Shown here: positions 1,735 to 60,491 of the stretch, in pieces | How positions within the stretch are numbered: the stretch's first letter is position 1 | Layout of the letters: each line of letters starts with the position of its first letter | Assembly (NCBI GenBank): GCA_918797485.1 | Contig: CAKKNE010000001.1 | Coordinates: 1,984,001 to 2,048,000 of the forward strand | Reading direction: 5' to 3' | Length of the DNA stretch: 64,000 nucleotides | From: Pelagomonas calceolata | Taxonomy: Eukaryota > Sar > Pelagophyceae > Pelagomonadales > Pelagomonadaceae | Position numbers and translations under genes: made by a program | The notes under the pieces: model-generated | Told to the model about the DNA's origin: nothing | What the model saw: only the letters and a program-made list of their open reading frames with translations | Database searches by the model: none

Positions 1735-1870
1735 CCTAGCACAGGTCACTACGGCCCGTAGCGATGCGCATTGGTCAAACCACGCGACAGCGAGTTAACC
1801 GAGGCTGCTATCTCGTATCTTATCGGCAGCTAGCGTGCTAGACACCGCTGCCAAGCGCCTTGAGCGTCTA

Positions 1871-1894
1871 CTAGCGTAGTCACATACTAGCAAG
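1871..1894. repeat. Hairpin motif, diverged copy
   Basis: CTAGCG and ACTAGCAAG arms lie in the 313-bp divergent gap between the methyltransferase gene (start 1734) and the caspase-like gene (start 2048). A second half-like copy, GCTAGCGTGCTAGACACC, is at 1829-1846. Confidence 0.45.
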
Positions 1895-2047
1895 AATCGC
1901 AGCGCAAACGGCGCTGCGGGGCTCGAGGAGCCAGGATCAACCAAAGCCGTGGGCCCGACGCTGCCGACGCGACCCCCGCACCCTAAGCACGCGGCTACGG
2001 GCTGCCCCGCCCACCGTCGAGCCATGCGCCCCACATAAACAACAGCT

Positions 2048-5000
2048 ATGCCACCCTTCGAGTCGGCAGTCGAGCCCGCCGGCGAGACGGAGAAGGAGCG
2101 CAAGAAGCGGGAAAAACGCGAGCGCAAGGAGGCCAAGAAGCGCGCGAAGGAAGAAGCCGCAATGGCGCCCGCGGACGCGCCCGGCCCGGCGCCCGCAAAA
2201 AAGAAGAAAAAAAAGAAGAAGAAAAAGATCGAAGACGACGACGAGGACGAATTAGAGAGGCTCAAGGCCGCCATGAACGACGACAGTGGCGAGCTCGAGG
2301 CGTCCGAGGAGGAGCTGCTCGAGGAATTGCAGACGGACTGTGCGGTACGCGTACAAAAGCAAGCGCGAGCGCTCAAAGCTCGGAGGCAGGTCCGGAACAT
2401 GATCAAGACGACCTTCGCGAAGGAGTACGACCAAGAACATGATAGGATGGTCTACCGGAACAAAGTGACTGGTTTGGTACAGAGGACGAAGCCACGACTC
2501 CTGCGGGACGAGGACCTGCCCGATCCTATTGTATATGTCGCGCCGGAAGGTTATGAGAGTGTACCTGCTGATAGAAAACAGTTCGCTTTAGTGTTGACTA
2601 CTACCTCATTCAACGATGAGGAGCGGTTACCTGCTCTACCAGCCGTGGTGGAGAACGACCACGACGCGATCCGAAAACATCTCGTGAACCCCTACGTGTG
2701 TAAATACGCAGAGGAGGACTGCCTGTTCCTCAAGAACGTGTCGAAGAATGTCTTTCTCACACAAATTGACGCGTTGCGAGACATTGTAAAAAAAGCGAAT
2801 CAATCAGAAAAACTAAGAACTGGGGCTGGCAGAGAATTCAAGCCCACCGGTTCATTATTAGTGTATGTGGCGACACACGTCGCCACGCACCGATCCGGCG
2901 GGCCCTACTTCTGTTTCTCCGACACGTCTGCCGTGAGCAACTCGTCGTTGCAACGGACCGGTATGAAAGTGAGCCAGTTCTGTAAATTAATCAGGGATAT
3001 CAAGTGTCGCGAGAAGACTGTGATACTAGACTGTTGCCATGTCGAACGGCCGCCGTCCAAAGAAGCCGCGAAGAGACCGGTGGTGGTCTATCCGCCGTCA
3101 ACCTTCTACTCTGATGTAGCGTACAAGGCCGAGTGTCGCGTGCTCGGTTCATGCAAATTAGGAGGCGAAGGCCGGCCGCCGGAATTTGGCGAGCAGCCGC
3201 CGAAGGCTGTGCTTGATCAGCCGGTGCTCGTGGATCGTAGCGAAGATGGCACGTACCACAAAGGTGTTGTTTCATCAGCAAATGAAGACGGGACCTACGA
3301 CGTCACCTTTGCTGATGACGACCTCCAACAGTCAATACCGAGATATTTACTACGACCGCGGAGCAAGGAGGATTTGGCGGCAGAAGCGGAAGAGTTAAGA
3401 AGGGCAGAACTCCTCGAGAAATTACAAAGGTCCATGAAGGTCACGACCCTGACCTCAAAATTCATAAAGAAAACGCAAGTCGCCGCATTGACGACGAGGC
3501 AGCGGGTAGAAGCCCCGGTGCCGGCCGCGGCGCCGGCGCCCGCCGAGGCGCCGGCGCCGGCGCCGGCGCCGTCGGACGATGAGCTCTGCATAGATCAGAG
3601 GGTTGAGGCGAGGTACCACGGTTCGGACCAGTACTACAAGGGTGTGATTACAAGTGTCCACGCCGACTATACGTACGACGTTACGTATGAAGACGGGGAA
3701 ACAGAACGGAACATTCCGAGGGATGCGATACGCGTGGTCGAAGTCCTGGACGAGGCCGAGGCGCCGCCCTCACCCATTCTGGAGGAACCTGTCAAGGAAG
3801 AGGTATCAATTGTTTCGTATGAAGAACCAAGGCTATCTCTATACGCGAGGATCTGTGATAAACTAAGATGCTGCCCGAAGATGCAGGTCAACCAGGACGA
3901 TCCTAGAAATATAATAGTCACCGATGAAGTGGAGCAGCTGTATGCAAGAAGGTGGTGCTGTTGCGAATGGGTGTCAGCTACGTTGTCTCTATTACCGTGC
4001 TGGTGCTGCTGGTCGCAAGCGAAGAAGGCGAGGAAGCGCGCCCGTAAAGAGGAGAAGCTGCGCATCAAGCGGGAGGGCTTGGCCAAGGCCGCGGCGTCGT
4101 ACGAGCGAGCCTTGTATGTCGAGGAACACTCCTTATTTGGAGGGGCCGTGGTGAAGGCTCTCACCGAAGCTGCGGAAACGGACGAGTCCAGAGTTTCTGT
4201 TGAGTCTGTCTACAACAAGGTCACGGAGATAGTAGCTGCAGACATCGAGAAGCGGCGCCAGGTCCAGGCGCTCGAGCAGCAGACGAAGGACCAGGCCGAC
4301 GACGACGAGGAGAAGCGACTACTCGAAGTCTCGCAACGAGCGTCGTTAGACGACCGACCACTCACGGCGGAGGAACCCGAAGATACGACAAACTACGAAG
4401 AGTTGAGTACCTCGACTCTCCAGTCCATAAAAGACCCGCCCAAAGACAACAAGGCCACGCAACGAAAGAAGGCCGAAGAGGCCAAGGAACGGCAGCAGCA
4501 GGCCAAGGAGATCCGGAAAGCTAGACAGCAGGCCATCAAGGAATTAGCTCAATTTAGGGTCGAGCGGAAACAAAAGCTCCCAGATGCTCTTGTAAGTCAG
4601 ACGCCCCAATGCGAATCATCCTCGAAGTGCGCGAAGCAGTACACTACTTTGGCTATGGCTCCGGCCCTACCTCCCGCGCCCGAGCCGCCCGTCGCCGTGA
4701 AGACACGAGCAAGGTCAGCTTTATTACAATGGCAGGATCCACCTTTTTCAGGAACACCCGCAGTCCAATATGACGTGCAGTCCATGGGCACGGCGAAATT
4801 CGACAGTGGGAAATGGGCGAAGTGCGGTGCGTTCACGTATATTGCTAGAAATGAATTCCAGGCGCCTCACCTCGTGCCGGGCATGGCCGTCTACTTTCGC
4901 GTGCGAGCGAGGAACAACAGCGGATGGGGCGCCTGGTCCGAGAGTTCGGAGAAGATTTTGCCCGTCGCAAATAAATTAGTTGGTTTGACCGAGGCCTTCG

Positions 5001-5986: not shown

Positions 5987-8900
5987 ATGCAGGGCTGCTT
6001 GGAGGAGGACTTTGCTGCGCTGCGGAAGCTGCGCGACGAGAGCGAGTGCGACGAGCTCAAGCAGGCGTGGTCCAGCGAGGACCCGCGCGAGTGGAGATTC
6101 GAATATGAAGGCAAACAGCAGCCATGTGTCACAGTGGCCGACGGCCGCGTGACTGTGCTCACCGTGAAAAGCGCGGACCTCACCGCGTTGCCGAACTCGA
6201 TCAGTGATCTCGGTGCGTTGCAGGTGCTCAACCTCTGGTTTTGCTCGGGTCTCAAAGCACTGCCGGCCACGATAAGTGGCCTCGGCTCGCTAAAAGATCT
6301 TACCTTGTGGGGATGCGGGAGCGTTGTCGAGCTGCCGGATGCAGTTGGAGACCTTAGAAAACTGACGGAGCTCAATGTGCAGGAATGTGGGGAACTCGCC
6401 GCGCTACCGGACACGATTGGTGAGCTTGGCGAGCTGACGACGCTGAATCTGGTAGGATGCTCGAACCTCGAAAAGCTACCAGACGCGATCGATGGCCGTG
6501 AAGGGCTGACGGTGCAGCTTCCGATTCAACTGATGACCGACAGCCCCCTGCTCGAAGACTTTGCCGTTCTGCGAAAACTGCGCGACGAGAGCGAGTGCGA
6601 TGAACTCAAGGCGGTGTGGACCGGCGAGGACCCGCGCACGTGGATGTGCGACTTTGGAGGCGAACAGGGACAATGTATCGGAGTGGAGAATGATAGGGTA
6701 TCTGTGCTCGCGCTCTCGTGCTCGAGCCTCGTCTCGCTACCGGACGCGATCGGCGAGCTCGGCGCGCTGACGGAGCTCGGGTTGTTCGAATGCTCGAGCC
6801 TCGCCGCGCTACCGGACGCGATCGGCGAGCTAAAGGCGCTGACACAGCTCAACTTGAACGGGTGCTCGAGCCTCGAGAAGCTACCAGACGCGGTTGCCGC
6901 GCGTGAAGGACTGAATGTGACGCTGCCATTTCACTTAATGATCCTGGATCTACCAGCATCCCTGCGCGAGGACTTCGTCACTCTGCGGAAGCTGCGCGAC
7001 GACGACGTGAGTGGTGCGCTCAAGGAGTTCTTTGGGGATGGCGATGACCCGCGCGAGTGGGAAGATGGCGATGGAGATGAAATTGTCACGGTGGAGGACG
7101 GCCGCGTGACGAAGCTCGTCTTGTACAAGTGCACGAAAATCTCTGCGCTGCCGGCCGCGATCGGCAAGCTCGGCGCGCTGACAGAACTCACCTTGTGCGG
7201 GTGCTCGAACCTCGCCGAACTACCGGCCGCGATCGGCGAGCTCAAAGCGCTGACGATACTCAACTTGATCGGGTGCTCGAGCCTCGTCGCGCTGCCGGAC
7301 GCGATTGGTAAGCTCGCCGCGTTGACGATGCTCGAGCTGAGAGACTGCTCGAGCCTCACGTACCCTCCGAAAGAGATGCATGGCAACGTGCACAAAACCG
7401 TCGGCTTCTGTTGCCTCAAAATTCTGGAAGACGGCAAAGTGTCTGTGGCAGACGTGAAGAAGAGTATAGTGAATCACGTTATCACTAGAGGAGATCTCGG
7501 GCGCATCGACTCGCTTGCAAGCAAGGATTCGGCGTTTGCTGAGATGACTAAATCAGTCAGGGCCGACTTCGCCGCTCTGCGGAAGCTGCGCGACGACGAC
7601 GCGAGCGGTGCGCTCAGGAAATTTTTTGGGGATGACGAGGACCCGCGCGGGTGGAAACGCGGTAATGCTGTCACGGTCTCCGTAGACGGGGTGACGGAAC
7701 TCAGCTTGATCGGATGCTCGAGCCTCACCGCGCTGCCGGCCGCAATCGGCGAGCTCAAAGCGCTGACGAGACTCGACTTGAGAGGGTGCTCGAGCCTCGC
7801 CGAACTGCCGGCCGCGATTGTGGGGCGTGAAAGGCTGACGGTCATGCTTCCAACTCAGTTGATCCCGGGCTCTCTTGACGAAGACTTCGCCGCTCTGCGG
7901 AAGCTGCGCGACGAGAGCGAGTGCGACGTGCTCAAGGAGGCGTGGACCGACGACGACCCGAGAAACTGGAAGTGCGATTTTGAAGGCGACCAGCAGCCAT
8001 GCGTCCAAGTGGCGGGCGACCGGGTGAGGGGGCTCCAGCTGTCCTTCTCGAGCCTCGCCGTGCTGCCCGACGCGATCGGCGAGCTCGGCGCGCTGACGTA
8101 TCTCAACTTGGTCAACTGCTCGAGCCTCGCCGCGCTACCGGCCGCGATCGGCGAGCTCGGCGCGCTGACCGAGCTCAGGTTGCTCGAGTGCACGAGCCTC
8201 GCCGTACTGCCCGATGCGATCGGTGAGCTTGGTGCACTGACGGAGCTCGTCTTGTACAACTGCTCAAGCCTCACCACGCTGCCGGCCGTGATTGGCGAGC
8301 TCGGCGCGCTGACGACGCTAGTTTTGTACGGCTGCTCGAGCCTCGAAAAGCTGCCGACCGCGATCGACGGGCTTAAAGGGCTGACGTTGGAGCTTCCGGC
8401 GCAACTTGTCACAGGCCCTCTGGCCGAGGACTTCGCCGCTCTGCGAAAACTGCGCGACGACGACGACACAAGCGGTGCGATTAAGGAGAGCGTCGGGGAG
8501 GATGAGGACCCGCGTATGTGGAGAGAGGGCAGGAGCGTCACGGTGGCGGACGGTCGGGTGACGATGCTCGTCTTGTACGAGTGCACGAAACTCACCGCGC
8601 TGCCGGCCACGATCGGCGAGCTCAAAGCGCTGGCGACCCTCAAATTAGGAAAGTGCTCGAGCCTCGCCGTGCTACCGGACACGATCGGCGAGCTCGGCGC
8701 GCTGACGAAGCTCCACTTGTACAAATGCACGAGCCTCGCCGCGCTGCCGGACGCGATCGGCGAGCTCAAGGCGCTGAAGTCGCTCGAACTGTTCACATGC
8801 TCGAGCCTCGTCGCGCTACCGGAGTCGATCGGCGGCCTCGACGCGCTGACAGAGCTCGACTTGCAGGGCTGCTCGAGCCTCGTTGCGCTACCGGACGCGA

Positions 8901-11900
8901 TCGGCGAACTCGGTGCCCTGACGAAGCTCGACTTGAGAGGGTGCTCGAACCTCGCCGCGCTACCGGACGCGATCGGCGAGCTCGGTGCGCTGACGGGGCT
9001 CAACTTGAGCGGCTGCTCGAGCCTTGTCGCCCTACCGGACTCCATTGGTAAGCTCGGCGCGCTGACGATGCTCAATTTGAACGGTTGCTCGAGCCTCACG
9101 TATCCTCCGAAAGAGATGCATGGCAACGTGCACAAAACCGTCGGCTTCTGTTGCCTCAAACTGCTGGAAGACGGCAAAGTGTCTGTGGCAGACGTGAAGA
9201 AGAGTATCTTAAATCACGTGGTCTCTGGAGGAACCGCCGAGCGCATCGACGCGCTCGCGAGCAAGGATTCGGCGTTTGCGGACATCACCGAATCAGCCAG
9301 GGCCGACTTCGCCACTCTGCGAAAACTGCGCGACGACGACGCGAGCGGTGCGCTCAAGAGGTACTTTGGGGACGGCGAGGACCCGCGCGAGTGGACACGC
9401 GTTACGGTGACGGACGGCCGGGTGCCGAAGCTCGACTTGTCCTACTGCAGGAGCCTCGCCAAATTGCCGGCCGCGATCGGCGGGCTCGGCATGCTGGCGT
9501 TTCTGAACTTACAACACTGCTCGAGCCTCGCCGAACTGCCGGACGCGATCGGCGAGCTCAAAGCGCTGACGGAACTCAACTTGACAGGGTGCGAGAGCCT
9601 CGCCGCGTTGCCGGCCGCGATCGGCGAGCTCAAAGCGCTGAGGAGGCTCGACTTGACAGGGTGCGAGAGCCTCGCCGCGTTGCCGGCCGCGATCGGCGAG
9701 CTCAAAGCGCTGAGGAGGCTCGACTTGAACAAATGTTCGAGCCTCTCCGCCCTACCGGAGTCGATGGCCGGTCTCGACGCGCTGACAAAGCTCAACTTGA
9801 GCGGCTGCTCCAAGCTGACGTTCCCAACCCCACACACGCACGGAGATGGTGCTGAGCGAATCAAACGTCTCCTCGCGAACACGACTAGCTTCCTCGACGA
9901 GGGCCTCCGTGCGGCCGACGCTGACGACGACGCAAAAGCGGACTTCCTCGAGATCGTCCACTGCGCGCCCTTCGCCGACCGCCTCGAAGAAGCAGTAAGA
10001 AAGGACCCGGCGCTCGCCGACCTCACGAACGACAAGGGCCAGCGCGCCATCGATCTCGCCTGCTTAGAATGCCGCAGCGCTATGCAAAAAGCCCTTTTCT
10101 TCCTCGGCCGCTACGACGTCGACAAAGGCCCGCCGGAGCACCGGTCCGCGACGTCGCTCGTCGTGCGAGCCGTCGACCACGAGGCGGCCGACGATTACGG
10201 GAAGCTATTTGACGAATTCGACAAGGACGGTAGCGGGACACTTGACTCGAATGAGCTCGGAGCCCTCGCAACAAAGCTGGGCACGAACGTCGAGATCTTA
10301 AAGCTAGAAGACGGGCAAAGCTACACGAGAAAAGCGTTTGTCGCGAAATGCCAGCGGCTCTTCGGCAAGGAACGCAAGGTGGTCCTCAAGATCTTCCAGG
10401 TCGAAGAGCAGTGGCGGAACGAGAAGCGGGGCCGCGACGATCAACAGCTCGACGCGCGCTACGTCGTGCAGACGATCCCGGCGCCCACGGACGACGAATT
10501 TGCAAAAGCGCTCGGCGAGACGAATCTCTTCGGCGAAGGCGTCGGGTCTCGAGCCATAGTCATGGACGCCGCCAATCGAAACCTGTTCCAGATCTACCAG
10601 TCGGAGCGGCCGGATCTGAACAAGGTGCGCATGCTGATGCAGCAGGTCATGGAGTGCGTCCAGCATCTACACGAGAAGAGGCTCGTCCACGGCGACATCA
10701 AGATGCTCAACGTCGTGCGACTGTCCCTCGATAATCGCCTGCGCTTGATTGATCTAGACGCGGCCGCAAAGGTTAGCCGTCATGATGGAGACTACGTCTG
10801 CGCCAAGTTCTCGTCCGCGATTCTACCCCCGGAGTGCTTCGCCAAGCTCAACGCTGATCAAGTGACCAAATTTGAAGCGTACTTTGAAGGCGTTGACACG
10901 GAGCTCCGGGAGAAGGTAGCGCCAAAGACCAAGCATGGTGCATCGTACGTCGTCAAGACGTTCTCTCTCACCGATGATGGCGCCCCCAAAATCGACGGCC
11001 TGCCGTACGAGCTCGTGGAAGCATCCGTAGCTGTCGACTACTGGTCGCTCGGCGCACTCTTGTTCCAGCTGGTCGCGGGTGAACCGCTCGTGCCCTCGAA
11101 TCGCGACGACGACTGTGTTAACGCCAAAAGCATGGCCATATTGGCCTCTTGGAACGACCACGCTGCAAAAAAGAATTTGGCCGTTATCAAGGACGCCGCA
11201 GCGCGGGATCTCGCGTCGAAGCTGCTCGTCCGCGATCCTGATGAGCGGGCCGAATTTAGCATCGCCGACACACTCGCGGCACACCCATTCTTCAAGCCGC
11301 CCAAGCCTGGCGACGTGGCGACACAAGAAAAACTGGATAAGATCATCGAGCAACAAGAGAAGGATAGCAAGAAGTTAGATGCCATTCTTAGTCTGAGCGA
11401 GAAGCACCGCGACGAGCTCCGCCAGACGCGCAGCACGCTCATGCGGGCTATATATGAAGCCACAGAGGTCTCGACGCCGACGGCGTTTGTTGTTCTGAAG
11501 GAGCGACTCCCGGCGGGGGAAGCCAGCGTCGAGTTGACGTTGAACGATGACGGCACTGGGTTTGTGGTGGAGGGCGAAGCCGTCGACGAGGCGAAGGACC
11601 GATACGAAGAGAGCAAGACCTGGCTGAATCTTTGTGCGCGATTCGGGCGCGGCGTTGCGAAGTGCAGCCCATCGGCCATCGCCGAGGCCGTCGCTGGTGC
11701 CTGCGAGGAACTCGTGGTCGGCGAGGAGATGTGGTTATACTTGATAGACGAGCTGACAGGGAAACCCGTAGTGCCGGAGGGCGAATCCATCTACCCTATT
11801 CGCATCACCAAGCCGGCCGAGGTCGTTTCGAAGCTCTTACCGGCCATGCAGGTCGGCCTGCACGCGGCGTCACTGGTCAACGGCGTCGCGGGCGTCGTCC

Positions 11901-12379
11901 GACTCTTTGGCTACCCGTGCCCAAAGGTTCCCGAGGCGTGGCGCGAGGGCGCGCAAAACTCGGTCGAAGTGCTGAAGCAGGAGAGCTCGGTCGAGGCTTT
12001 TGGGGCGGTCCACGAGAAGGTGCAGGACGGCGGCGAAGAGACGGAGACGGTTCGAGGGGCGGCCCTGCGGGAGCTGGAGGCGTTTTATGCAAAATACGAT
12101 CCGGACCGGGAGTACGCGGGCCTGCGACGAATAGGCGACCCTAGCGACGGGACGGCCGTGTGGACGCTGTTGACGGACCCCGAGGAGGTGAAGGCGGCCA
12201 TTGAGAAACGCGCCGCGCAGCGCCGGGCGGAGGCGAGGCGGCACGACGAGAGATTCCAGGAGCTGATGGATAATGCCGAGGCCGGTGCCCCTGCGGCGGC
12301 CACGACACCGGCGATGCCGATCGCCGCGGCGGGCGGCGGCCCATCGGCCGCCCGCGCCCTCGCGTCGCCGCGGCGCTAG
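5987..12379 (+). CDS. Giant LRR / EF-hand / protein kinase
   Basis: 2130 aa from the ATG at 5987. The frame is open upstream to 5714, but the LRR module pattern begins right after this Met. Residues about 5-1278 hold plant-style leucine-rich repeats (L--LP-AIGEL-ALT-L-L-GCSSL), divided by seven copies of a cap-like module (DFAALRKLRD...W--EDPR-W...V-DGRV) that recalls the LRRNT_2 cap of plant receptor kinases. Next come a degenerate ankyrin-like stretch (about 1300-1380), one canonical EF-hand loop DKDGSGTLDSNE (about 1410-1421), and a Ser/Thr kinase domain: VVLKIF (Lys about 1466), VHGDIKMLN (about 1567) and IDLDAA in place of DFG (about 1591). A coiled coil (about 1781-1824) and a stramenopile-type tail follow. 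There is no signal peptide or TM segment, so it is probably cytosolic. The kinase may be calcium-responsive; this is inferred from the EF-hand. Confidence 0.85.
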   Translation: MQGCLEEDFAALRKLRDESECDELKQAWSSEDPREWRFEYEGKQQPCVTVADGRVTVLTVKSADLTALPNSISDLGALQVLNLWFCSGLKALPATISGLGSLKDLTLWGCGSVVELPDAVGDLRKLTELNVQECGELAALPDTIGELGELTTLNLVGCSNLEKLPDAIDGREGLTVQLPIQLMTDSPLLEDFAVLRKLRDESECDELKAVWTGEDPRTWMCDFGGEQGQCIGVENDRVSVLALSCSSLVSLPDAIGELGALTELGLFECSSLAALPDAIGELKALTQLNLNGCSSLEKLPDAVAAREGLNVTLPFHLMILDLPASLREDFVTLRKLRDDDVSGALKEFFGDGDDPREWEDGDGDEIVTVEDGRVTKLVLYKCTKISALPAAIGKLGALTELTLCGCSNLAELPAAIGELKALTILNLIGCSSLVALPDAIGKLAALTMLELRDCSSLTYPPKEMHGNVHKTVGFCCLKILEDGKVSVADVKKSIVNHVITRGDLGRIDSLASKDSAFAEMTKSVRADFAALRKLRDDDASGALRKFFGDDEDPRGWKRGNAVTVSVDGVTELSLIGCSSLTALPAAIGELKALTRLDLRGCSSLAELPAAIVGRERLTVMLPTQLIPGSLDEDFAALRKLRDESECDVLKEAWTDDDPRNWKCDFEGDQQPCVQVAGDRVRGLQLSFSSLAVLPDAIGELGALTYLNLVNCSSLAALPAAIGELGALTELRLLECTSLAVLPDAIGELGALTELVLYNCSSLTTLPAVIGELGALTTLVLYGCSSLEKLPTAIDGLKGLTLELPAQLVTGPLAEDFAALRKLRDDDDTSGAIKESVGEDEDPRMWREGRSVTVADGRVTMLVLYECTKLTALPATIGELKALATLKLGKCSSLAVLPDTIGELGALTKLHLYKCTSLAALPDAIGELKALKSLELFTCSSLVALPESIGGLDALTELDLQGCSSLVALPDAIGELGALTKLDLRGCSNLAALPDAIGELGALTGLNLSGCSSLVALPDSIGKLGALTMLNLNGCSSLTYPPKEMHGNVHKTVGFCCLKLLEDGKVSVADVKKSILNHVVSGGTAERIDALASKDSAFADITESARADFATLRKLRDDDASGALKRYFGDGEDPREWTRVTVTDGRVPKLDLSYCRSLAKLPAAIGGLGMLAFLNLQHCSSLAELPDAIGELKALTELNLTGCESLAALPAAIGELKALRRLDLTGCESLAALPAAIGELKALRRLDLNKCSSLSALPESMAGLDALTKLNLSGCSKLTFPTPHTHGDGAERIKRLLANTTSFLDEGLRAADADDDAKADFLEIVHCAPFADRLEEAVRKDPALADLTNDKGQRAIDLACLECRSAMQKALFFLGRYDVDKGPPEHRSATSLVVRAVDHEAADDYGKLFDEFDKDGSGTLDSNELGALATKLGTNVEILKLEDGQSYTRKAFVAKCQRLFGKERKVVLKIFQVEEQWRNEKRGRDDQQLDARYVVQTIPAPTDDEFAKALGETNLFGEGVGSRAIVMDAANRNLFQIYQSERPDLNKVRMLMQQVMECVQHLHEKRLVHGDIKMLNVVRLSLDNRLRLIDLDAAAKVSRHDGDYVCAKFSSAILPPECFAKLNADQVTKFEAYFEGVDTELREKVAPKTKHGASYVVKTFSLTDDGAPKIDGLPYELVEASVAVDYWSLGALLFQLVAGEPLVPSNRDDDCVNAKSMAILASWNDHAAKKNLAVIKDAAARDLASKLLVRDPDERAEFSIADTLAAHPFFKPPKPGDVATQEKLDKIIEQQEKDSKKLDAILSLSEKHRDELRQTRSTLMRAIYEATEVSTPTAFVVLKERLPAGEASVELTLNDDGTGFVVEGEAVDEAKDRYEESKTWLNLCARFGRGVAKCSPSAIAEAVAGACEELVVGEEMWLYLIDELTGKPVVPEGESIYPIRITKPAEVVSKLLPAMQVGLHAASLVNGVAGVVRLFGYPCPKVPEAWREGAQNSVEVLKQESSVEAFGAVHEKVQDGGEETETVRGAALRELEAFYAKYDPDREYAGLRRIGDPSDGTAVWTLLTDPEEVKAAIEKRAAQRRAEARRHDERFQELMDNAEAGAPAAATTPAMPIAAAGGGPSAARALASPRR
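7349..7470 (+). repeat. Recent internal duplication, copy 1
   Basis: This stretch, encoding YPPKEMHGNVHKTVGFCC and flanks, is nearly identical at base level to 9089-9210, exactly 1740 bp downstream. The few differences suggest recent duplication or gene conversion inside the LRR-kinase gene. Confidence 0.85.
9089..9210 (+). repeat. Recent internal duplication, copy 2
   Basis: Partner of 7349-7470. It encodes the same non-LRR helical insert (KTVGFCCLKLLEDGKVSVAD). Confidence 0.85.
9587..9730 (+). repeat. 72-bp tandem LRR duplication
   Basis: Two adjacent 24-residue LRRs (9587-9658 and 9659-9730) are identical except for the last codon (Thr versus Asn). This is one LRR unit copied very recently. 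Confidence 0.9.
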
Positions 12380-12524
12380 ACCGTGGATTCGCTGCGCCGC
12401 GTCGAGGACCGGCTCGCCAGCATCGAGGACCGGCTCCGGGGGTTGTGTATATATTGGTTTTATTGATGTCCTCGATCGCATCACATCGATGTTACGGTGC
12501 TAGGACTAGTCCTCGACGCATGTA

Positions 12525-12544
12525 GCTAGCTTATACACACTAGC
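12525..12544. repeat. Hairpin motif copy
   Basis: GCTAGC and ACACTAGC arms, 77 bp upstream of the ATG at 12621. The spacer is shorter than in the consensus. Confidence 0.6.
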
Positions 12545-13352: not shown

Positions 13353-14558
13353 TTAGCTCAAGACCATATCCGCCTTCCGAATCACGACACCCGGCTCGCC
13401 CGAGTGCCGCGGCCGGAGCTCCGCGCAGCACCGCGACCGCTTCCCCGCGAGCGCTCTTAAGTCATCGGCGGCGTAGGCCGTCCGCCCCGCCGCGATGGCC
13501 GCGCCCGCGACGGACACGACCGCGACGTGCGCGCCCGCCCCAAAGTCCCCCACGACGCGCACGACGCCCACGGCTAATAAACTCCGTCCACAGTTCGACA
13601 CGACCTCGGCGGCGCCATCATCAACAACGACGCGGCCCTGAGCCGCCGCGCAAGGCTCGTCCTCGCAGACGCGCGACTCCTCCTCGGCCTCCTCGCGCTC
13701 GTGTACGAGCTTCGCGATCGAGCGCACGTGGTCGTCGCGGATACCGTGCTGGAGGAGCCAGCCGTCCAAGCGGTACAGGTAGTCGACGTTGCGGCCGCTC
13801 GGGCCCCGCGCCGACGCTATAATAGACGCTATCGTTGTGATTGGTGATTCGCCCGTGTGGCCGGCCGCTTTACTACGTTGTGGACAGCGCGGGCAGACGT
13901 AGGCCACGACGTCTCTGACGATGGGCACGTCGTCGGACGACCGCCCGTACAAATCGAGGCACCTCTTCTCGTAGGCCGACTCGCGCACGTCCATGGTCTC
14001 GAGGATGCGCGCGGCGTCGCGCGTCGGCAGCAAGAACGCGCAGCCCCAGCACCGGTCGTTGTCTCGTCCCTGCTCGAGCATGACGGCGCGGCCCGGATCT
14101 TTGCTGGTGCCTCTATGTTGTGCGTCGGCCAGGTGGAAGCGGCGGACGTGGCCCTTGACGTACCCCACAATGCTGCGCTCGAACGCAAACCCCTGGCGCC
14201 ACAGTATCGACCCGTACCCAAAAATCCAGATGTCGTCCCAGTCGTCGTGCACCGAATAGGCCTCGGCGCAGGCCGAGCGCTGGTGTTTCAATTCTCGTCG
14301 TTTGGGCGTCTTCGGCGAGGCGGGCGGGCTTCGCGGCGGCGTGCGCGGCGGCGTTCGGCAGGGCGGCACGGGTGGCTGCTCGCCCCTTGCTATACGCGCT
14401 TCCTCATCCAACCCTACCAATGACGCCCGCAGTCGAAAGGCGGCATGCCGCGCGTCCTCGCTCGGCAGCGGCCGTCTACTCTTCAGCCAGCGGTTGAAGA
14501 GCTCTATTCGCGCTGCATCGTCTTTGCACGCAGCCCAAGCTGATGTGAAGTCACTCAT
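13353..14558 (-). CDS. ChaC-type gamma-glutamylcyclotransferase fused to a PUA domain
   Basis: 401 aa, ATG at 14558. After a Pro-rich linker, residues about 107-305 match ChaC glutathione-specific gamma-glutamylcyclotransferase: IWIFGYGSILW (about 107-117, substrate loop), RRFHLADAQHRGT, PGRAVML and MDVRESAYEKR, which carries the expected catalytic Glu. ChaC enzymes cleave glutathione to 5-oxoproline and Cys-Gly in the cytosol. Residues about 307-395 (VVVDDGAAEVV, GRSLLAVGVV, GDFGAGAHVAVV, AAIAAGRTAYAADDLR, VVIRKADMVL) match the C-terminal PUA domain of bacterial glutamate 5-kinase. Known ChaC proteins end after the catalytic domain. The junction lies inside one uninterrupted frame, so the fusion is in the sequence as given. 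Confidence 0.88.
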   Translation of the reverse strand: MSDFTSAWAACKDDAARIELFNRWLKSRRPLPSEDARHAAFRLRASLVGLDEEARIARGEQPPVPPCRTPPRTPPRSPPASPKTPKRRELKHQRSACAEAYSVHDDWDDIWIFGYGSILWRQGFAFERSIVGYVKGHVRRFHLADAQHRGTSKDPGRAVMLEQGRDNDRCWGCAFLLPTRDAARILETMDVRESAYEKRCLDLYGRSSDDVPIVRDVVAYVCPRCPQRSKAAGHTGESPITTIASIIASARGPSGRNVDYLYRLDGWLLQHGIRDDHVRSIAKLVHEREEAEEESRVCEDEPCAAAQGRVVVDDGAAEVVSNCGRSLLAVGVVRVVGDFGAGAHVAVVSVAGAAIAAGRTAYAADDLRALAGKRSRCCAELRPRHSGEPGVVIRKADMVLS

Positions 14559-15010
14559 CGATGCGTTTGCGTCCCCGTCGATGCGTTTGCGCGCTTGCAG
14601 CCAAATTGCTGTGTCAAGCTCTCAGAGCAATGCTGGGCCTTGCGTGGCCAGCAGTGATCACTACGACTGATTACGACACAATAGACCCAGAATCGAATTC
14701 CAAGAGTGTATCAAGGCCAGTCAATACCCCGGCGGGTTGCACAAAAAAAGCTGTGCAAGCCAGAGCCAAGCTAGCGTCCTGTAAGACACTAGCACCGCAT
14801 CAAAGAGGAGCCAGCGGCCAGTTCCACATCCTGACGGGGGTCGTCCCAAAAGAAGGGGGGGCGTGCGAGTCCCTGTGACTCAGCCCTTGCGTCCTAGTCC
14901 AGCCGGACGGGTGGGCCCAGGGGGAGCGGGAGGGGTACGGGGAACCCTGCGACGTAACTAGCCTCAGCCTCAGCCTCGCATCGAACGACCAATAAAAAGA
15001 ACAATATTAC
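14559..15010. other. Intergenic region upstream of the ChaC-PUA gene
   Basis: 452 bp. It holds a short direct repeat TCGATGCGTTTGCG (about 14559-14592) and the hairpin motif at 14770-14793, and nothing that looks coding. Confidence 0.5.
14770..14793. repeat. Hairpin motif copy, full length
   Basis: Arms GCTAGCGTC and GACACTAGC around loop CTGTAA. It lies 212 bp upstream of the ChaC-PUA start. Confidence 0.75.
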
Positions 15011-16269: not shown

Positions 16270-16290
16270 GCTAGTGTGTCTACTCGCTAA
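16270..16290. repeat. Hairpin motif copy
   Basis: GCTAGTGTG and CGCTAA arms, 63 bp upstream of the minus-strand start at 16207 and 237 bp upstream of the plus-strand start at 16527. Confidence 0.6.
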
Positions 16291-16526
16291 TATTATTGCT
16301 CTACGGCTGAAGTTGCCAGTCTTGGCTTGAAGTGGCTGCCATAGCAGCAGATTGTCCACTGCGCGATACAACTGCACCGTCTTGCCGCAACAGGAGTGTT
16401 TCGCTCCCAAAGAAAGGCGTAAACCAGCCTAGCACTTACCACAGCGCTGCTTCACTCACAAGCAGTGCAAACAACCAGCGCCGCCGAGCGCTGCCAGGAA
16501 CCCACTCTGCAGCGCGGAGCCACACG

Positions 16527-18844: not shown

Positions 18845-18867
18845 GCTAGTATCTTACAGCCGCTAAC
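18845..18867. repeat. Hairpin motif copy
   Basis: GCTAGTATC, loop TTACAG, arm CCGCTAAC. It lies 119 bp upstream of the chosen lipid kinase start (18726). Confidence 0.65.
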
Positions 18868-21890: not shown

Positions 21891-22433
21891 TCAACGGCCG
21901 GATGCAACCGTTAATAGCCTCTGGCGCTGCGAGGGTTGCCCTCAACGCTAGGGAGAGCGTCAAGGGAGCGTCGCGGAAATCGGCTCAAGGAGCGTCTTGG
22001 CCCCAAAGCGCTCCAGAAGCAGTTGCACCAATGAAGGGGCAACACGCAGTCCGCCCTGCTTGCCTTGGTAGCGCTATGTGATGGACCTATGGGCGCTGCA
22101 CTGCACCAGGCTTAACATGCTTGCTAGTGTCTTCAGGCCGCTAGCCCAAACGCGCAGGAACCCTGGAAGCCGCGCCTAGGGGACGGTACCCCCACAAACT
22201 GGCTCATTGCCGAAAGTTGTTCATAACAGGCAGCTGTTTACGTTCTTCTTACGGCTCCGCGCGCGCGGGCCCTACGCCCCCAACTGCCCCCCTACGAGCA
22301 AGTAAAGTCCACGGCTCTTACCCAAACCGTGCAGACGGCCGCGTCGCACACCGGCGGGGTGCGTCACCGCGACAAGACGCCATACGAGAAGAGGGGGGAG
22401 GGGCACAATTCAAATCAGACGCGCCGTCTCCGT
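21891..22433. other. Intergenic region between RNase HII and LHC genes
   Basis: 543 bp: upstream flank of the RNase HII gene and downstream flank of the LHC gene, both minus strand. It holds the motif copy at 22123-22145. No coding signal is convincing. Confidence 0.5.
22123..22145. repeat. Hairpin motif copy
   Basis: GCTAGTGTC, CCGCTAGC arms with a loop one base shorter (TTCAGG). It lies 233 bp upstream of the RNase HII start and is preceded by TGCTT as in other copies. Confidence 0.75.
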
Positions 22434-30723: not shown

Positions 30724-31148
30724 TTTTGTTCTACGTGACCGCTTCCTGTCGGCTCTCGCGCGTCGGTAGGCGTATGCAGCGCTCTATGTACCGCTTCCTG
30801 TCGGCTGCAGGCTCTCGCGCGACCAGAGGCGTACACAGCGCAGCGCCGGCGCTACGAGGCTGGCTCGTAGCTCGCTGTCCAGCCACGCAACTGTCAGGCA
30901 CGCGGCGGACCGAAACAGATAATGCGACGGTTGAATCAGAGGTGTTGGACGCGATCGCTTACGCAGCGGCCCGAGACGCGGCTTGGCTTGTGCCTGGATT
31001 TTTGCTATGTTGCTAGTGTGTTACCGCTAGCAGATACACGGTGGCGAAGCGTTCGGGGTCCGTACTACCTGGGGGTGGGTTCAATAAGTGGCTCTCTCTC
31101 TCTCGGCAGAAAGAAAAGGAAACATAGTGTAGGAAAACACAACACCAG
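30724..31148. other. Intergenic region between SFT2 and RMI1 genes
   Basis: 425 bp with a 17-bp direct repeat ACCGCTTCCTGTCGGCT (30738-30754 and 30790-30806), the motif copy at 31012-31031, and a CT-rich run near 31090. Confidence 0.5.
31012..31031. repeat. Hairpin motif copy, short form
   Basis: GCTAGTGTGTTACCGCTAGC: both arms kept, four bases missing in the middle. 289 bp upstream of the SFT2 start. Confidence 0.65.
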
Positions 31149-36737: not shown

Positions 36738-36759
36738 GCTAGCGGCCTAAGACACTAGC
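36738..36759. repeat. Hairpin motif copy
   Basis: GCTAGCGGC, loop CTAA, arm GACACTAGC followed by AAGCAAG. 95 bp upstream of the ATG at 36854. Confidence 0.75.
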
Positions 36760-37333: not shown

Positions 37334-37336
37334 TGT

Positions 37337-41841: not shown

Positions 41842-41864
41842 GCTAGTGATAGTGAGACACTAGC
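41842..41864. repeat. Hairpin motif copy, diverged
   Basis: GCTAGTGATAGTGAGACACTAGC. Both arms here read like the GTGT side, so the usual asymmetry is lost. 176 bp upstream of the ATG at 42040. Confidence 0.5.
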
Positions 41865-42039: not shown

Positions 42040-42789
42040 ATGGCGTCCGACGACGATGCGCCGCCGCGCCGCGTGACGCATACGGAGGGCACGTCGTACA
42101 TCGTTGCTTTCGGACATCCGGAGCTGTTCCCACTTCCTGGATCGAGGGATCTTGTTTTCAGCCCGTTCCCGGCGGCCGGCGGCCAAAACCCTTACCAGCC
42201 CGTAAGCGGTGTGCTGCGTGAGACACATACGCAAATGCAAGAATCCTGGACCATAGATAGCGTGCCCCCTCCCTTCTTCTGCCGCTTCTCCACGTATGTG
42301 TTACACCACTTCTACGAAGCTCTCCGTGGGCTTTCTGAGCGGAGCCGAGGTCTCCGATTGGAGGAGCTGATAGGACATATGAGGCCCCTCGCAACTGATC
42401 AATATGCTGTAGCTATCCTGAGAAGCATCGGTGGGGAGGATCAAGAGAATAGGGGGACGCTTATAGTCGCGATTGCAGTGGCGGCACTCATCCGCGGCTG
42501 TCACGAAGACAAAACGCTCACGGCGTTTTCAGCGACGCTGGATCCCCCTCCGGCTATTCTTGATGCGAGCTGGACCAGCCATCTCTACTTCAATTTGAGC
42601 GACCGCGAGCGAAAGCGGCTCCGACGGTTTGATAACGGGGTCCGCCGCATGCCCTACGTCCTCATGCGCCAGCTCATTCTCCGCAAGGCGCCCAAGAACG
42701 GGGCGCACGGGCCGGCGCGGCGCCTCGTCCGGCGCAACTTCATGCCCGACTCTGAGGAGCTCTTCCGCGTCGTCGTGTCGTTCCTCTAA
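42040..42789 (+). CDS. Hypothetical protein
   Basis: 249 aa from ATG 42040; an upstream in-frame extension to 41971 looks like 5' flank. Polar N-terminus, then a region with aromatic residues (YIVAFGHPELFPLPGSRD), a helical middle (FSTYVLHHFYEALRGLSERSRG, TLIVAIAVAALIRGCHED) and a basic C-terminus (RKAPKNGAHGPARRLVRRNF). No known domain is recognised. It ends 41 bp from the convergent carrier gene. Confidence 0.6.
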   Translation: MASDDDAPPRRVTHTEGTSYIVAFGHPELFPLPGSRDLVFSPFPAAGGQNPYQPVSGVLRETHTQMQESWTIDSVPPPFFCRFSTYVLHHFYEALRGLSERSRGLRLEELIGHMRPLATDQYAVAILRSIGGEDQENRGTLIVAIAVAALIRGCHEDKTLTAFSATLDPPPAILDASWTSHLYFNLSDRERKRLRRFDNGVRRMPYVLMRQLILRKAPKNGAHGPARRLVRRNFMPDSEELFRVVVSFL

Positions 42790-43891: not shown

Positions 43892-44319
43892 GGTTACGCG
43901 GTTCGTCTACGTGCGCGTGGGTGGCGGCTTGCTGGAGGTGCCAAAGCGCTCTGTGGTGCGCTGTTCGGCTTCGCGCTTGCTTGCTTTGGTGGTGTGCTGC
44001 AGCAGGAGTTGCAAAGGGTGGCGTGGACGTGCAAGCCGCGGCTGCGTCTCGCGTCGGCCGCTTGCACCGGTCGCAGAGATTCTTCGTGCGCCCCTAACCT
44101 GAGCAGAGGCGTAACAATTCGCAACAAACTGCTGGCGCGTCGTCGAGTTGTGCTTGCTAGTGCCTTACAGGACGCTAGCTGCAAAAACGGAGACACGACC
44201 GCAAGCAGCGTGCAGCGCCCCAGAGCAGCTGCAGACACTGACATCAATACTACGGATCGATCGCGCACGCGTGCGGCAGCTGTGAGGAGCACACCGGCAA
44301 CTGCACCAAAGTGGCAGCG
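43892..44319. other. Divergent promoter region, carrier and TCD-like genes
   Basis: 428 bp between two start codons, with one full motif copy at 44156-44179. Nothing else is recognised. Confidence 0.5.
44156..44179. repeat. Hairpin motif copy, full length
   Basis: Arms GCTAGTGCC and GACGCTAGC, loop TTACAG, preceded by TGCTT. 141 bp upstream of the TCD-like start and 265 bp upstream of the carrier start. Confidence 0.75.
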
Positions 44320-47146: not shown

Positions 47147-47672
47147 GAACCGCCTGACGCGACGCGTTGTTGTGTTTGGCGCGCGCGGTGGCCGCGGCGC
47201 TTGCAGCTGTGGTGGCTGCTGTATTTATAACCGCCGGACGCGACGGATGCTGTATTTGGGTTGCCGCGGCTTGCAGCTGTGGTGCTGTGTATTATTTTGA
47301 GTTTAGAGAGCGTGCATGCAGCTAGCGATGCAGACTCAGTGGTGACAGCAGTAGAGGTGATGCCCGCAGCCCCGAATCTATGAAACGCGGCCGACTAAGC
47401 CAGCACACGTCGGCTTCACTTTTTTTGGCTCGAGCCACCTTAGCGTCGATAGACACACTAGCCTTTTAGGCGCTTGCCGCCTAGCACCGTAGACGCATTG
47501 CTCGGGGGCTTTGCCGAGGCGATTCTGCTTGCTTAGAAGGATGTACGCTGTTAAGAAAGACGCACGCGCCCGCCGCCGACGAATCGCCAAAGTACCCACG
47601 AGTCCTGTCTCACGAAGCCGGCCAAGCCTGGTCGCTCCGGATATCAAGATGACTGATTACACAACACAAAAA
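47147..47672. other. Intergenic region upstream of the SLC35A-type gene
   Basis: 526 bp. The part next to the start holds a direct repeat GCTTGCAGCTGTGGTG (about 47199 and 47269). A diverged motif copy is at 47441-47462. No gene is seen. Confidence 0.5.
47441..47462. repeat. Hairpin motif copy, diverged
   Basis: TAGCGTC and ACACTAGC arms with an altered centre (GATAGAC). 295 bp upstream of the SLC35A-type start. Confidence 0.45.
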
Positions 47673-48695: not shown

Positions 48696-49229
48696 CTTTC
48701 TTTTGCCGCTTCGACGGCGTCTTTTGCGGGCCGAAACTCCCGCGGCGGCCCAATGTGGTTTTTACGCTGGCGGACGGCGCGAGATCGGATTTCTGTTCTG
48801 CTGCCGCAAGATGCTATAGCCCAGTGACAAATGCGACCGTTCCGCCAGTCAGCAAGCACCCCAATTGTGAGCTGTGTGGCCCCAAGAAAGTCTCCGGGGA
48901 TTCGCTAGTATGTCTATAGCCTAGCCCGCGCCAAGGCCAGGATTGCTGGCTAGCTGACCGCTCGGCGGTCCTGCGCTCGATAGGATTCGTTTTCCCGTGT
49001 CTCGCTGCAGCTGTGAGCAAGCACCAGCAATTGCGTGGCGTGAATCGAAGTCGCTGCCAAGCTGTGCCCACTGCCCGCGTCGCTGCGTACGCCGCGCGAC
49101 GTGATACATCGCCGCACACGTCGCAGCGCCGTAGCGCCGTAAGCGACGGCGCCGCGCGATACAGATCGCCGCACGCCGTCGCTGCGCCGTAACTGTAAAA
49201 CAGCCGCCGACGCACTTTGACTAGCAACC
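48696..49229. other. Divergent intergenic region, membrane protein and PPIH
   Basis: 534 bp with the motif copy at 48904-48925, an imperfect direct repeat with ATACATCGCCGCAC / ATACAGATCGCCGCAC (about 49101-49175), and a half motif GACTAGCAACC ending 1 bp before the PPIH start codon. Confidence 0.5.
48904..48925. repeat. Hairpin motif copy, diverged
   Basis: GCTAGTATG and GCCTAGC arms, 209 bp upstream of the minus-strand start at 48695. Confidence 0.5.
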
Positions 49230-52647: not shown

Positions 52648-53077
52648 CGATCTCAGGAGAGGCAGAATTTGTACTACTACTACGGTACAGTACTTTTACG
52701 AACCAAAGGCCACCAATGCGAGTGCGCAGCCTTGACAAGGCTGGCTCCAAAAAGGAGGCGAGACTGTCCACAGCAATACGGCTTGGCTGCGACTACTCAG
52801 CCGTGCTCGCATCAATAAACGAACTATAACGCATATATTTGATATGGCAATTGAGCTGTACCAGTGCTAAAATGCCTCACAGTGAGTTTGTTGCATGCTT
52901 GCTAGTGTGTTACAGGACGCTAGCAGCCTCCGCCGCCGCGAGCAAAAGGGCCGCATAGTAGCCTCAAGGCTTGCGCAACACGCAGACGAGTGCTGTACCA
53001 ATCGCTGACGGCCACAGCTGCAGAGCGCGGCTCATCTGCAAAGACACAGACCCACCCCTCAGGGCAGGCGAGCAGCA
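52648..53077. other. Divergent promoter region, RWDD2-like and SPF45-like genes
   Basis: 430 bp between two starts with a full motif copy at 52901-52924. The stretch near 52830-52860 is relatively A/T-rich (CATATATTTGATATGG). Confidence 0.5.
52901..52924. repeat. Hairpin motif copy, full length
   Basis: GCTAGTGTG, loop TTACAG, GACGCTAGC, preceded by TGCTT. 154 bp upstream of the plus start (53078) and 254 bp from the minus start (52647). Confidence 0.78.
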
Positions 53078-55486: not shown

Positions 55487-55675
55487 GGCGGCGCAGGAGA
55501 ACGAGGAGAACGCGCAGAGTGTCTCTGAGGTCGGTCGGGAGCGGTGACGGCGGCGCTAAAGAGCTCGGCGGCGGCAAGCCAGGCACAGGGCGCAGTGAAA
55601 AAAGCGCAACGCGAGTCTCTAAGCGCTCTGAGGGTGTAGGGACCCTCCGCGTGGAGCGCTGAGTATTGGAAGCCG

Positions 55676-55699
55676 GCTAGCGGCCTGTAAAGACACTAG
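55676..55699. repeat. Hairpin motif copy, full length
   Basis: GCTAGCGGC, loop CTGTAA, AGACACTAG. 190 bp upstream of the UBL gene start and 18 bp from the stop of the next minus-strand gene. Confidence 0.75.
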
Positions 55700-55716
55700 A
55701 AAGTGGAGTTCGTGAA

Positions 55717-56940: not shown

Positions 56941-57056
56941 CGTCTCGGGCAGCCCTTCCCTGCACACGCGTGCGTCGGTCAATGGTACGATGCTGCGGCA
57001 GTTGCTTCGATCATGGCTTGCTCATGACCAAATGCTGCCAGTCCGCAAAAAAAGTT

Positions 57057-57080
57057 GCTAGCGGCATGTTAAGACACTAG
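57057..57080. repeat. Hairpin motif copy, full length
   Basis: GCTAGCGGC, centre ATGTTA, AGACACTAG. 117 bp upstream of the start at 56940 and 92 bp from the stop of the FG-GAP gene. Confidence 0.72.
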
Positions 57081-57171
57081 GGAATGTACACGACGGGAAA
57101 ACAATGGGGGAGGGCGACTCGGGGTACGAGAGGCCCGAGGGGAATTGCGCGCGGCGCGTGGACGGGCGCGG

Positions 57172-58530: not shown

Positions 58531-58654
58531 CGTTGGGCTGCCCCGGCGGGGCCAGTCTGGCACAGCTCTGGGCAGAGTTAAAAAAAAAAATTCCTCGAGG
58601 CCCCGCGGACGACTCCGCGCCAGGCACTCCGACGCAGAGAAAGGAAGGGCCGTT

Positions 58655-58669
58655 CTGTAAGACACTAGC
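58655..58669. repeat. Hairpin motif half copy
   Basis: CTGTAAGACACTAGC followed by AAGCAAAG. The second arm is missing. 125 bp upstream of the FG-GAP gene start. Confidence 0.6.
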
Positions 58670-58860
58670 AAGCAAAGCCGCGGACGCCTCAAAACGCGGC
58701 ACGCGCCCGCCGCCGATGAATCATCAGCGACGCGCGGTGTCTCCCCCCCCCCCAGGTCTATCCCCCAGGCACTTGTCCTAGCACCGTAACAATAGACAGC
58801 GGCGGCGGCGTGCTAAAGGTAAACGGAAGATAAGGTTACACTAGTACTCGAAACGAATTG

Positions 58861-60006
58861 TCACGCCAGCTCTGCGTCATCCATTGGAGGCACGGACACG
58901 AGCGAGGGCGGCCGCAGGTCGACCTGCTCGTAGATTTGTTGCGGCGGCGGCGCCGGCCGCCTTCTTTTATAGCGCTCGACGTTGTAGGCCAAGACCCCGC
59001 TCGCCGTCAGCGCGAAGCCCCCGTACCCTGAGGGAGCGACGTCGTTCTTCAGGAGACCGATCGAGACCCCAATTAGTACCAATTCCTTCGCGACCGCGGC
59101 CACGGCCAGCGTGAGCGACGACGTCAAAGCTACCAATGTGACTTCGACCGTCAACAAACCCAAGCCGCCGAGCGCCAACGCCAAGGCGGCACCCAATGCT
59201 TTTTGTGCGAGGTCACCGCTACCTGGTGTCCGTATCAACCGCCGCGCATCAAGTAAACCAGCGACTAAGACCAAGAACGCGGCCGACGTCGGCAGCGTCC
59301 TCCTTACCAACTCGGTGGGCTTCACCCGCACACCTTTCTGGCAGGCCTTTTGTGTCAGGCCCCACCGCAGGCCACCGACGGCGCCACCCGATACCGTCAG
59401 CAAGACGCCTAGTAACGAGTCCTTCCCGTGATGATGGTGATCCGCGACGCCTGGTGAACAGAGAATAGTACCCGCGCAGATAACTAAAACAATAAGTATG
59501 GAGGACCAGCGGCACGGCTCGAGCTTCAGTGCCAGACCGGCGCCCAAGACAAACACGGGCGTGCAGGCCTTGATCATCGTATGTGTGGCTACCGAGAGGA
59601 GTAGTAATCCGGCATTGGACAAGGCTACTTCCGCGCCGACGCAGCACGCCACATACATGAGTAATCTATCGGTCTCGTCGGGGAAGACGCAACAGCGCTT
59701 CGTCTCTGTTGTTTCCTCCTTGGGGAAGACGCAAGCTGCGGCTCTTGCGCCGCATTCCGCGGATTTCACGAGAGCAGCTTCCACGACGAAGGTCGCTGCC
59801 ACGAGTGACGCGGGGTACGGAAAGGCCTGGAGAGCGGCCTTAAACGCCAAGGTCATCGCTATCGAAAGGATGGCGTAGCCTAGCAAGGCGGCGGCGACGA
59901 CCGCGGCTTTTGGTTCGGCTGGTGGGTCCATGATTCGACGGGGCGTCGCGCCGTAGCTGAGAGGGGGCGAGTTGCGGTAGGAGATGACCGGCGTGGAGAG
60001 GACCAT
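58861..60006 (-). CDS. SLC35C2-like sugar-phosphate/nucleotide-sugar transporter
   Basis: 381 aa from ATG 60006; ATG 59931 (MDPPAEPK) is equally possible and gives 356 aa. It has about ten TM helices of the drug/metabolite superfamily: GYAILSIAMTLAFKAALQAF, VALSNAGLLLLSVATHTMIK, ACTPVFVLGAGLALKLEPCR, LIVLVICAGTILCS, GVLLTVSGGAVGGLRWGLTQ and LVALTSSLTLAVAAVAKELV. The patterns T-TMIK---P-FVL and GG-RW-LTQ match SLC35C2 and triose-phosphate-translocator relatives. The N-terminal half carries Cys/charged inserts (CVFPKEETTETKRCCVFPDE). Probably Golgi; substrate unknown. The C-terminus is a polar tail. Confidence 0.87.
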   Translation of the reverse strand: MVLSTPVISYRNSPPLSYGATPRRIMDPPAEPKAAVVAAALLGYAILSIAMTLAFKAALQAFPYPASLVAATFVVEAALVKSAECGARAAACVFPKEETTETKRCCVFPDETDRLLMYVACCVGAEVALSNAGLLLLSVATHTMIKACTPVFVLGAGLALKLEPCRWSSILIVLVICAGTILCSPGVADHHHHGKDSLLGVLLTVSGGAVGGLRWGLTQKACQKGVRVKPTELVRRTLPTSAAFLVLVAGLLDARRLIRTPGSGDLAQKALGAALALALGGLGLLTVEVTLVALTSSLTLAVAAVAKELVLIGVSIGLLKNDVAPSGYGGFALTASGVLAYNVERYKRRRPAPPPQQIYEQVDLRPPSLVSVPPMDDAELA

Positions 60007-60491
60007 CTATGAGCGCGCCGACGGCGGCGCGGCGGCCCGATTGAGCGCGCCGGCGGCGCCTCAGCGGGCCAATTGCAGCTCCGTTCTCTCGTGGGCCAGG
60101 CGCGCCTCCGAGGGCCGTAAAGGCGGCACAGCGCTTAGTGCGCTGCCGTGGCGATTGCGGGTGCTAGTTCCACACGTTGGATCGATGCTGGGCTATAAGA
60201 GCCTGTTTTATTACGGCTGGAGGTTGTGGTGCGGCTTAATTTAGTTTTCTAGCATGTCTATGAGCTAGGTTACTATTTCCGGGTCACCTGAAAAGGGGGC
60301 TCGCTTGAGCTCCCCGGTTGAAGGCGCGAGCAGTTGCTTACGGTATCGACCCCGACTGACCCATAAGGGCGTAAGTCACGGTGACCGGGACTTGGCAGGT
60401 GACTCAAACTTTGGTCTGGACAAAGAAAACAATTTTAAGGGCCCATCATAACGACGGGTCGGTCCTGTGCCAGCAAACCGAACCGCCCATC
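60007..60491. other. Divergent intergenic region
   Basis: 485 bp. Contains a weak motif-like site at 60249-60268 and GC-rich sequence. No tRNA fold was convincing in the segment 60280-60380. Confidence 0.45.
60249..60268. repeat. Hairpin motif-like site, weak
   Basis: CTAGCATGTCTATGAGCTAG. It keeps the CTAGC/GCTAG ends and little else. Confidence 0.3.

Follow-up and report, generated by a model that had tools for sequence, protein, structure and literature searches.

A 64,000-base stretch of the genome of the pelagophyte Pelagomonas calceolata (assembly GCA_918797485.1, contig CAKKNE010000001.1; hereafter ‘the window’) carries, between its genes, repeated copies of a short, hairpin-like and slightly asymmetric motif, and the question raised by this locus is what such a motif is for. 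A preliminary description of the window offered several answers: a promoter or insulator element, a structured 5′ leader, or a tiny mobile element that settles in promoters. Here, we present evidence that the motif is probably a promoter-proximal, two-part DNA element that occurs in either orientation and to which one or two broadly acting, sequence-specific Pelagomonas proteins are predicted to bind. Its most likely identity is that of a lineage-specific promoter element and candidate general regulatory factor site.

The genome scanned comprises 32,445,274 bases in eight contigs (C1 and so on), with the window at C1:1984001-2048000. The published account of the P. calceolata RCC100 genome lists six nuclear contigs (32.4 Mb), one plastid contig and one mitochondrial contig, and reports near-identical ends of contigs 1 and 5 (PMC9481584). 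This end duplication is visible among the motif copies themselves (copies at C1:41363 and C5:41315, and at C1:299264 and C5:299228), and genome totals therefore count some copies twice. Counts relative to genes come from a 264-kb sample, consisting of the window and twenty 10-kb stretches spread over contig 1, which was searched with a profile allowing at most four mismatches in 21 fixed places.

Alignment of the copies refined the motif to a left arm, GCTAGTGTCTTAC, a spacer usually of 1-4 bases, and a right arm, [A/C]CGCTAGC, together a near-palindrome of ~20-25 bases that often has TT or GCTT directly before its left arm; across 47 copies, column information reaches background five bases to the left and three bases to the right of the arms. 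The enrichment over control anticipated in the preliminary description was borne out. The sample holds 48 profile matches against 2.0 expected from two first-order Markov resamples (15, 11, 8, 6, and 8 copies with 0, 1, 2, 3, and 4 mismatches, respectively), and in the whole genome the exact form with a spacer of 0-6 bases occurs 1,174 times and the exact left arm alone 1,741 times, each with no occurrence in the reversed control. Extrapolation from 46 net copies per 264 kb, on contig 1 only, gives ~5,600 copies of the looser form genome-wide. The 24-mer first proposed, with up to three mismatches allowed, has seven matches at four distinct sites, against 0.06 expected. The right arm has at most two mismatches in 29 of the 30 cases in which the left arm has at most one, and words of the motif rank top in an unsupervised k-mer count of promoter gaps. 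A looser scan (five mismatches, any spacer of 3-9) was dropped, having returned 47-65 matches in each of three resamples. Among the plus-strand copies listed, exact copies are missing from C1:2.52-2.96 Mb, a stretch that is by itself within chance.

A sister form, CTAG[T/C][A/G]TGT..CTA[G/A], is distinct from the main form and contributes nine further matches at eight places in the sample, against none in the reversed sequence of the sample; seven of these matches lie in promoter-side gaps, two (one place) are unclassed, and none falls in a called gene. The earlier count of ‘about seventeen’ copies in the window was right because five weaker copies (at 12525, 16270, 47439, 48904, and 60248) belong to this sister form and add to the 12 that pass the profile. 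All eight positions originally named (14770, 18845, 22123, 36738, 44156, 52901, 55676, and 57057) carry the motif.

The promoter reading draws support from placement relative to genes. That no copy lies in a gene is true of the window, and in the sample 47 of 48 copies are outside called coding sequence though 74% of bases are called coding (binomial P ~2e-26). The motif is present in 19 of 49 gaps between divergent genes and in 19 of 52 tandem gaps, together 38 of 101 promoter-side gaps, but in only one of 49 convergent gaps (Fisher P 3e-7). Because convergent gaps are short (median 76 bp), the density per kilobase matters as well: 0.95 copies in divergent, 0.99 in tandem, and 0.13 in convergent gaps, the last figure coming from 7.6 kb. 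A second case between two 3′ ends, L013, is outside the unbiased sample. The distance to the start codon is 90-290 bp in 51 of 60 cases, and the statement that most copies lie 60-300 bp from a start, in either orientation, holds. Within divergent gaps, 17 of 20 copies sit near the middle (relative position 0.36-0.65). The distance to the downstream ATG in tandem gaps is 88-352 bp for 19 of 20 copies, and the twentieth, at 2,190 bp, is the weak copy that was counted as lying in a called gene.

Orientation relative to the gene is random, both in the sample (10:10) and over loci with both neighbours (15 same, 13 opposite), and 41 divergent gaps show no preference for either side (medians 185 and 176 bp, P 0.80). 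Copies are also spaced one to a gap: 39 of them fall in 38 of the 87 promoter-side gaps that measure 150 bp or more, where random placement would fill ~31 (P <=0.0007 in three weightings), with double sites at L038 (in the sample) and L024 (outside it). Divergent gaps, with two promoters each, are no richer in sites than tandem gaps; they hold a copy in 39% of cases, against 60% expected if each promoter were independent (P 0.0025), and divergent pairs therefore seem to share one site. This placement (promoter-side gaps almost only, free orientation, one copy per gap, and apparent sharing by divergent pairs) supports a promoter element, one of the options first put forward. On this reading, a promoter would need a single bound site to have its chromatin opened or the transcription machinery recruited, and, since the motif occurs in either orientation, one site between divergent genes could serve both.

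No regulon was visible in a small sample of genes, with Pfam families in 13 of 20 motif-bearing genes (of 96) and 12 of 20 motif-less genes (of 80) and no common function. Motif-bearing genes sampled include those for the RPN6 proteasome subunit, DCP2, a cap guanine-N2 methyltransferase, an aquaporin-type protein, a PPR protein, and a kinase; sampled motif-less genes are as functionally mixed, and at least two of them (window 15011-16207 and 45980-47146) are themselves preceded by a copy of the sister form.

The spacer that follows TTAC is variable in length. Spacer lengths in 47 sample copies are 3 (17 copies), 2 (12), 4 (7), 1 (4), -1 (3; the arms share one base), 5 (2), -2 (1), and 6 (1), and in the first 100 exact copies listed 3 (72), 2 (23), 1 (4), and 4 (1). 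Among the 17 sample copies with a spacer of three, the first base is A in 14, the third is G in 14, and the second is G or T in 15; among the 72 such exact copies in the first 100 listed, the commonest spacers are AGG (25) and ATG (16), as counted by hand. The mismatch rate is 27% in the spacer versus 4% in the arms (17 unbiased spacer-3 copies; the arm figure is biased low by the cut-off). The T opposite G, said earlier to be kept as an asymmetry, is retained in 44 of 47 copies, and the eighth arm pair is T-C, mostly unpaired, in 27 of 47. Owing to this lasting T/C asymmetry the halves are not equivalent, from which we infer two different subunits or an extended contact on the left. The count of compensatory arm changes that had been suggested as a check yielded one paired double change (T-A, at the outermost pair) in 47 copies. 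Uncompensated arms and random orientation therefore favour recognition as DNA rather than RNA, presumably by a protein that activates or opens the promoter.

Outside Pelagomonas, exact motif searches in four forms gave no match in the viral contigs of IMG/VR, which may leave out records near this genome. The spacer-3 form, the only form searched in GTDB genomes, has two occurrences there, on contigs of metagenome-assembled genomes (MAGs) filed as Spirochaeta and a proteobacterium, with run numbers that we take to be those of Tara Oceans. One of the two stretches matches the Pelagomonas genome at 96% and 90% identity over two adjoining pieces and the other at 89% over 0.34 kb. As this Pelagomonas-like DNA (L051:2043-3615 and L052:3551-3889) sits in contigs with bacterial-type genes (MgtE, MurB, MgsA), both MAG contigs are probably chimeras of a Pelagomonas relative that arose during assembly or binning; the 24-mer, including the spacer, is unchanged in both. 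Full-text literature searches returned no promoter element described for pelagophytes among the matches listed, and the matches listed for a search with the motif letters were unrelated by title.

Several points weigh against a promoter element. The main form is absent from 63 of the 101 promoter-side gaps, one third of exact left arms are without an exact right arm (present at 1,174 of 1,741), and 7 of the 48 sample copies, near stretch ends, are unclassed with no neighbour gene. The sample was drawn from contig 1 only, and its genes were called by a codon-score method trained on the sample, not taken from published models, with introns ignored; some called starts are likely too far in, given the excess of ATGGCG-type words in sequence classed as ‘intergenic’. 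Usual eukaryotic factor sites carry far less information than the ~31 bits summed over the columns of this motif, a figure inflated by the four-mismatch cut. Because the MAG contigs were found by exact motif arms, only the reference side and the spacer provide an independent check there. The spacer has preferences of its own, and source subfamilies (AGG, ATG, TGG) could therefore mimic fixed arms with a varied spacer. Finally, copies confined to promoters and free in orientation could equally result from a mobile element that prefers to insert there.

The last two points belong to the likeliest of the alternatives, in which the motif is a tiny mobile element, or what is left of one end, with open promoter chromatin as its target and a placement that reflects insertion preference together with removal from genes. 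Promoter-biased, orientation-free insertion is known for some mobile elements, and the spacer preferences resemble possible subfamilies. About 50 places match a dispersed repeat of ~142 bp, of which ~39 have all or part of the motif at the left end. A 251-base query from L038 found 39 other main places among the best 40 of 127 candidates (matches of 51-145 bp); 32 of them start within six bases of the left edge of the motif, five inside the motif, and two beyond it. A query with the body only (best 40 of 48 candidates) has 30 places in common with that list, 29 of these with all or part of the motif; a further ten places were found by the body query alone and ten by the motif-containing query alone, among the matches listed. 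At L038, an 8-bp direct repeat surrounds the ~142-bp unit, which lies between two copies of AGCCACTG; at L022, a similar unit in front of a second motif has a direct repeat of 16 bp at its two edges, though 9 of the 16 bases are the motif's own start. The third composite inspected, window copy 22123, has no exact direct repeat of at least 7.

For the motif copies as such, the mobile-element explanation is nonetheless unlikely. Target duplication at the 47 copies shows no excess over shuffled pairings, the body that follows the motif in the repeat (‘block B’) is found at three places, equal to 4 of 84 motif flanks, and 68 of the 84 flanks match no other, the remaining 12 matching for different reasons (two 3′-end repeats and one overlapping pair). 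The one-per-gap distribution is more even than chance. Moreover, only 25 of the 72 exact spacer-3 copies discussed above, all of whose fixed places are intact, have the commonest spacer. Neutral decay from a single source would not give this, because losing AGG in two thirds would leave very few copies unchanged at every other position; the argument would be weaker if there were several source subfamilies. The earlier suggestion of a tiny mobile element is thus not supported for the motif copies as such, but the family of longer repeats shows that there is a mobile side. A combined history is a comparably doubtful prospect: the promoter network would have been wired by a mobile element. The motif would be the former end of a short transposable element, still recognizable in the ~142-bp repeat with direct repeats at the edges of two copies, and the body would have decayed or been trimmed. 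A protein of the host, perhaps a domesticated transposase, would now recognize that end in thousands of promoters as a site of general use.

The Introner Elements of pelagophytes, dispersed in the same genome, are ~210 bp long and lie inside genes as introns, as the genome paper describes them (PMC9481584). The motif, unlike these, measures ~20-25 bp and is almost always outside called coding sequence, and for individual copies an intron of an unseen gene is possible. Separately, L035:5355-5557 and 6250-6452 form an inverted pair of ~205-bp repeats, 89% identical and of Introner Element size.

An insulator or architectural boundary, separating neighbouring genes rather than driving them, would agree with the mid-gap position between divergent genes, the nearly single copy per gap and the long, two-part site. 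Such a role would be hard to tell from that of a promoter element with the present data. It is nevertheless a distinctly improbable reading, in that the motif is equally common in tandem gaps, where it keeps its distance from the downstream start in 19 of 20 cases, and is almost missing from convergent gaps, most of which (30 of 49), however, measure less than 100 bp. A structured RNA hairpin in 5′ leaders is very improbable because arm changes are uncompensated, and although the RNA form of the motif can fold, with the G-U strand the more stable (-14.1 versus -11.2 kcal/mol at 14770), its orientation is random, three of eight folded strands (22123 on both strands, and L038) are at most about one z unit beyond shuffles, an Rfam scan of the window gave no family at gathering score, and lax scans gave a single sub-threshold small nucleolar RNA match (L038, E 0.41) and nothing in L050.

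The copies in the window, of the main and sister forms, are collected in Table 1.

Table 1. Motif copies and an associated repeat remnant in the window (positions in window coordinates).
Feature	Position	Strand	Setting
Weak copy, 4 mismatches	1870..1891	-	Divergent gap, 135 and 156 bp from two starts
Sister-form copy	12525..12544	-	Tandem gap
Perfect copy, spacer 3	14770..14793	-	211 bp upstream of gene 13353-14558(-)
Sister-form copy	16270..16291	+	Divergent gap
Copy, spacer 2	18845..18867	+	118 bp upstream of minus-strand start
Copy, spacer 2	22123..22145	+	232 bp upstream of gene 20889-21890(-)
Remnant of ~115-bp body (‘block B’) following motif in dispersed repeat	22146..22214	+	
Copy, shortest spacer in window (one base common to both arms)	31012..31031	+	
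Copy, spacer 1	36738..36759	-	Tandem gap
Copy, 3 mismatches	41842..41864	-	Only motif-bearing convergent gap of sample; 1-kb gap with low-scoring coding stretch 42235-42789(+)
Strong copy, spacer 3	44156..44179	+	Divergent gap, 264 and 140 bp from two starts
Sister-form copy	47439..47462	-	Tandem gap
Sister-form copy	48904..48925	+	Divergent gap
Strong copy, spacer 3	52901..52924	+	Divergent gap, 253 and 153 bp from two starts
Copy, spacer 4	55676..55700	-	189 bp upstream of minus-strand start
Copy, spacer 4	57057..57081	-	116 bp upstream of minus-strand start
Left arm intact, right arm lost	58643..58669	-	112 bp upstream of minus-strand start
Weakest sister-form copy	60248..60269	+	Divergent gap

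Other dispersed words and repeats were encountered. After masking of the motif, promoter gaps of the sample show an excess of GGCTGCCC words (28 gaps versus 4.6 expected), and the other words left are a start-codon context (ATGGCG) and a 3′-end word. A second dispersed word, TTACGGTGCTAGGACTAG, is either a 3′-end element or a repeat, with 353 copies at no more than one mismatch and none in the control; it is located in the window at 12492-12509(+) and 58772-58789(-) and elsewhere at L034:4898, L044:8476, and L050:8917 and 9023. Nine of its 10 matches in the sample are in the sense orientation 50-300 bp downstream of a stop codon, and the tenth (four mismatches) is in a called gene. A repeat of ~65 bp, CGGTGGCGAAGCGTTCGGGG...TTCAATAAGTGGCTCTCTCTC, occurs near gene 3′ ends (window 31036-31102, L042:4555-4621, and L028 near 2750-2814), with 67 bp identical in two places.

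The window also contains a long reading frame, 5987-12379(+), with many 72-base tandem units that are apparently leucine-rich repeats (a type judged by eye). L039 (C1:2800001-2810000) has 51% guanine plus cytosine (GC), no motif, three ATG frames of at least 120 amino acids, and no gene called by the caller, which was trained on GC-rich sequence. It fits a low-GC putative centromere as characterized in the published account, in which such regions have an only slightly lowered gene density (PMC9481584).

Pelagophytes include cosmopolitan, abundant algae (PMC9481584). One long word shared by ~40% of the promoter gaps sampled would offer a way to study how transcription starts in this lineage, would help to find promoters in environmental DNA, and would serve as bait for a factor whose role here may be as central as that of Abf1 or CTCF elsewhere. 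The length of the motif, its elastic spacer and its link to a mobile repeat make the origin of such a network directly testable.

Comparable sites are known from other eukaryotes. The Drosophila proteins DREF and BEAF-32, which have BED-type zinc fingers, bind at divergent housekeeping genes; the Pelagomonas motif likewise lies between divergent genes, but it is long, whereas their sites have short CGATA-type cores. The vertebrate bidirectional-promoter motifs of NRF1, BANP/ZBTB33 (TCTCGCGAGA), and ZNF143 are, like the Pelagomonas motif, long, partly palindromic, and enriched between divergent genes; they differ from it in sequence and in their fixed spacing, the Pelagomonas motif having in addition a built-in T/C asymmetry of its halves. 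Abf1 and Reb1 of budding yeast are general regulatory factors with promoter-proximal, orientation-independent sites that serve divergent genes, the Abf1 site being in two parts. The motif described here is unrelated to these in its letters and has ~20 fixed bases with a spacer of varying length, but like them it is promoter-proximal and placed between divergent genes, it occurs in either orientation, and like the Abf1 site it is built of two parts.

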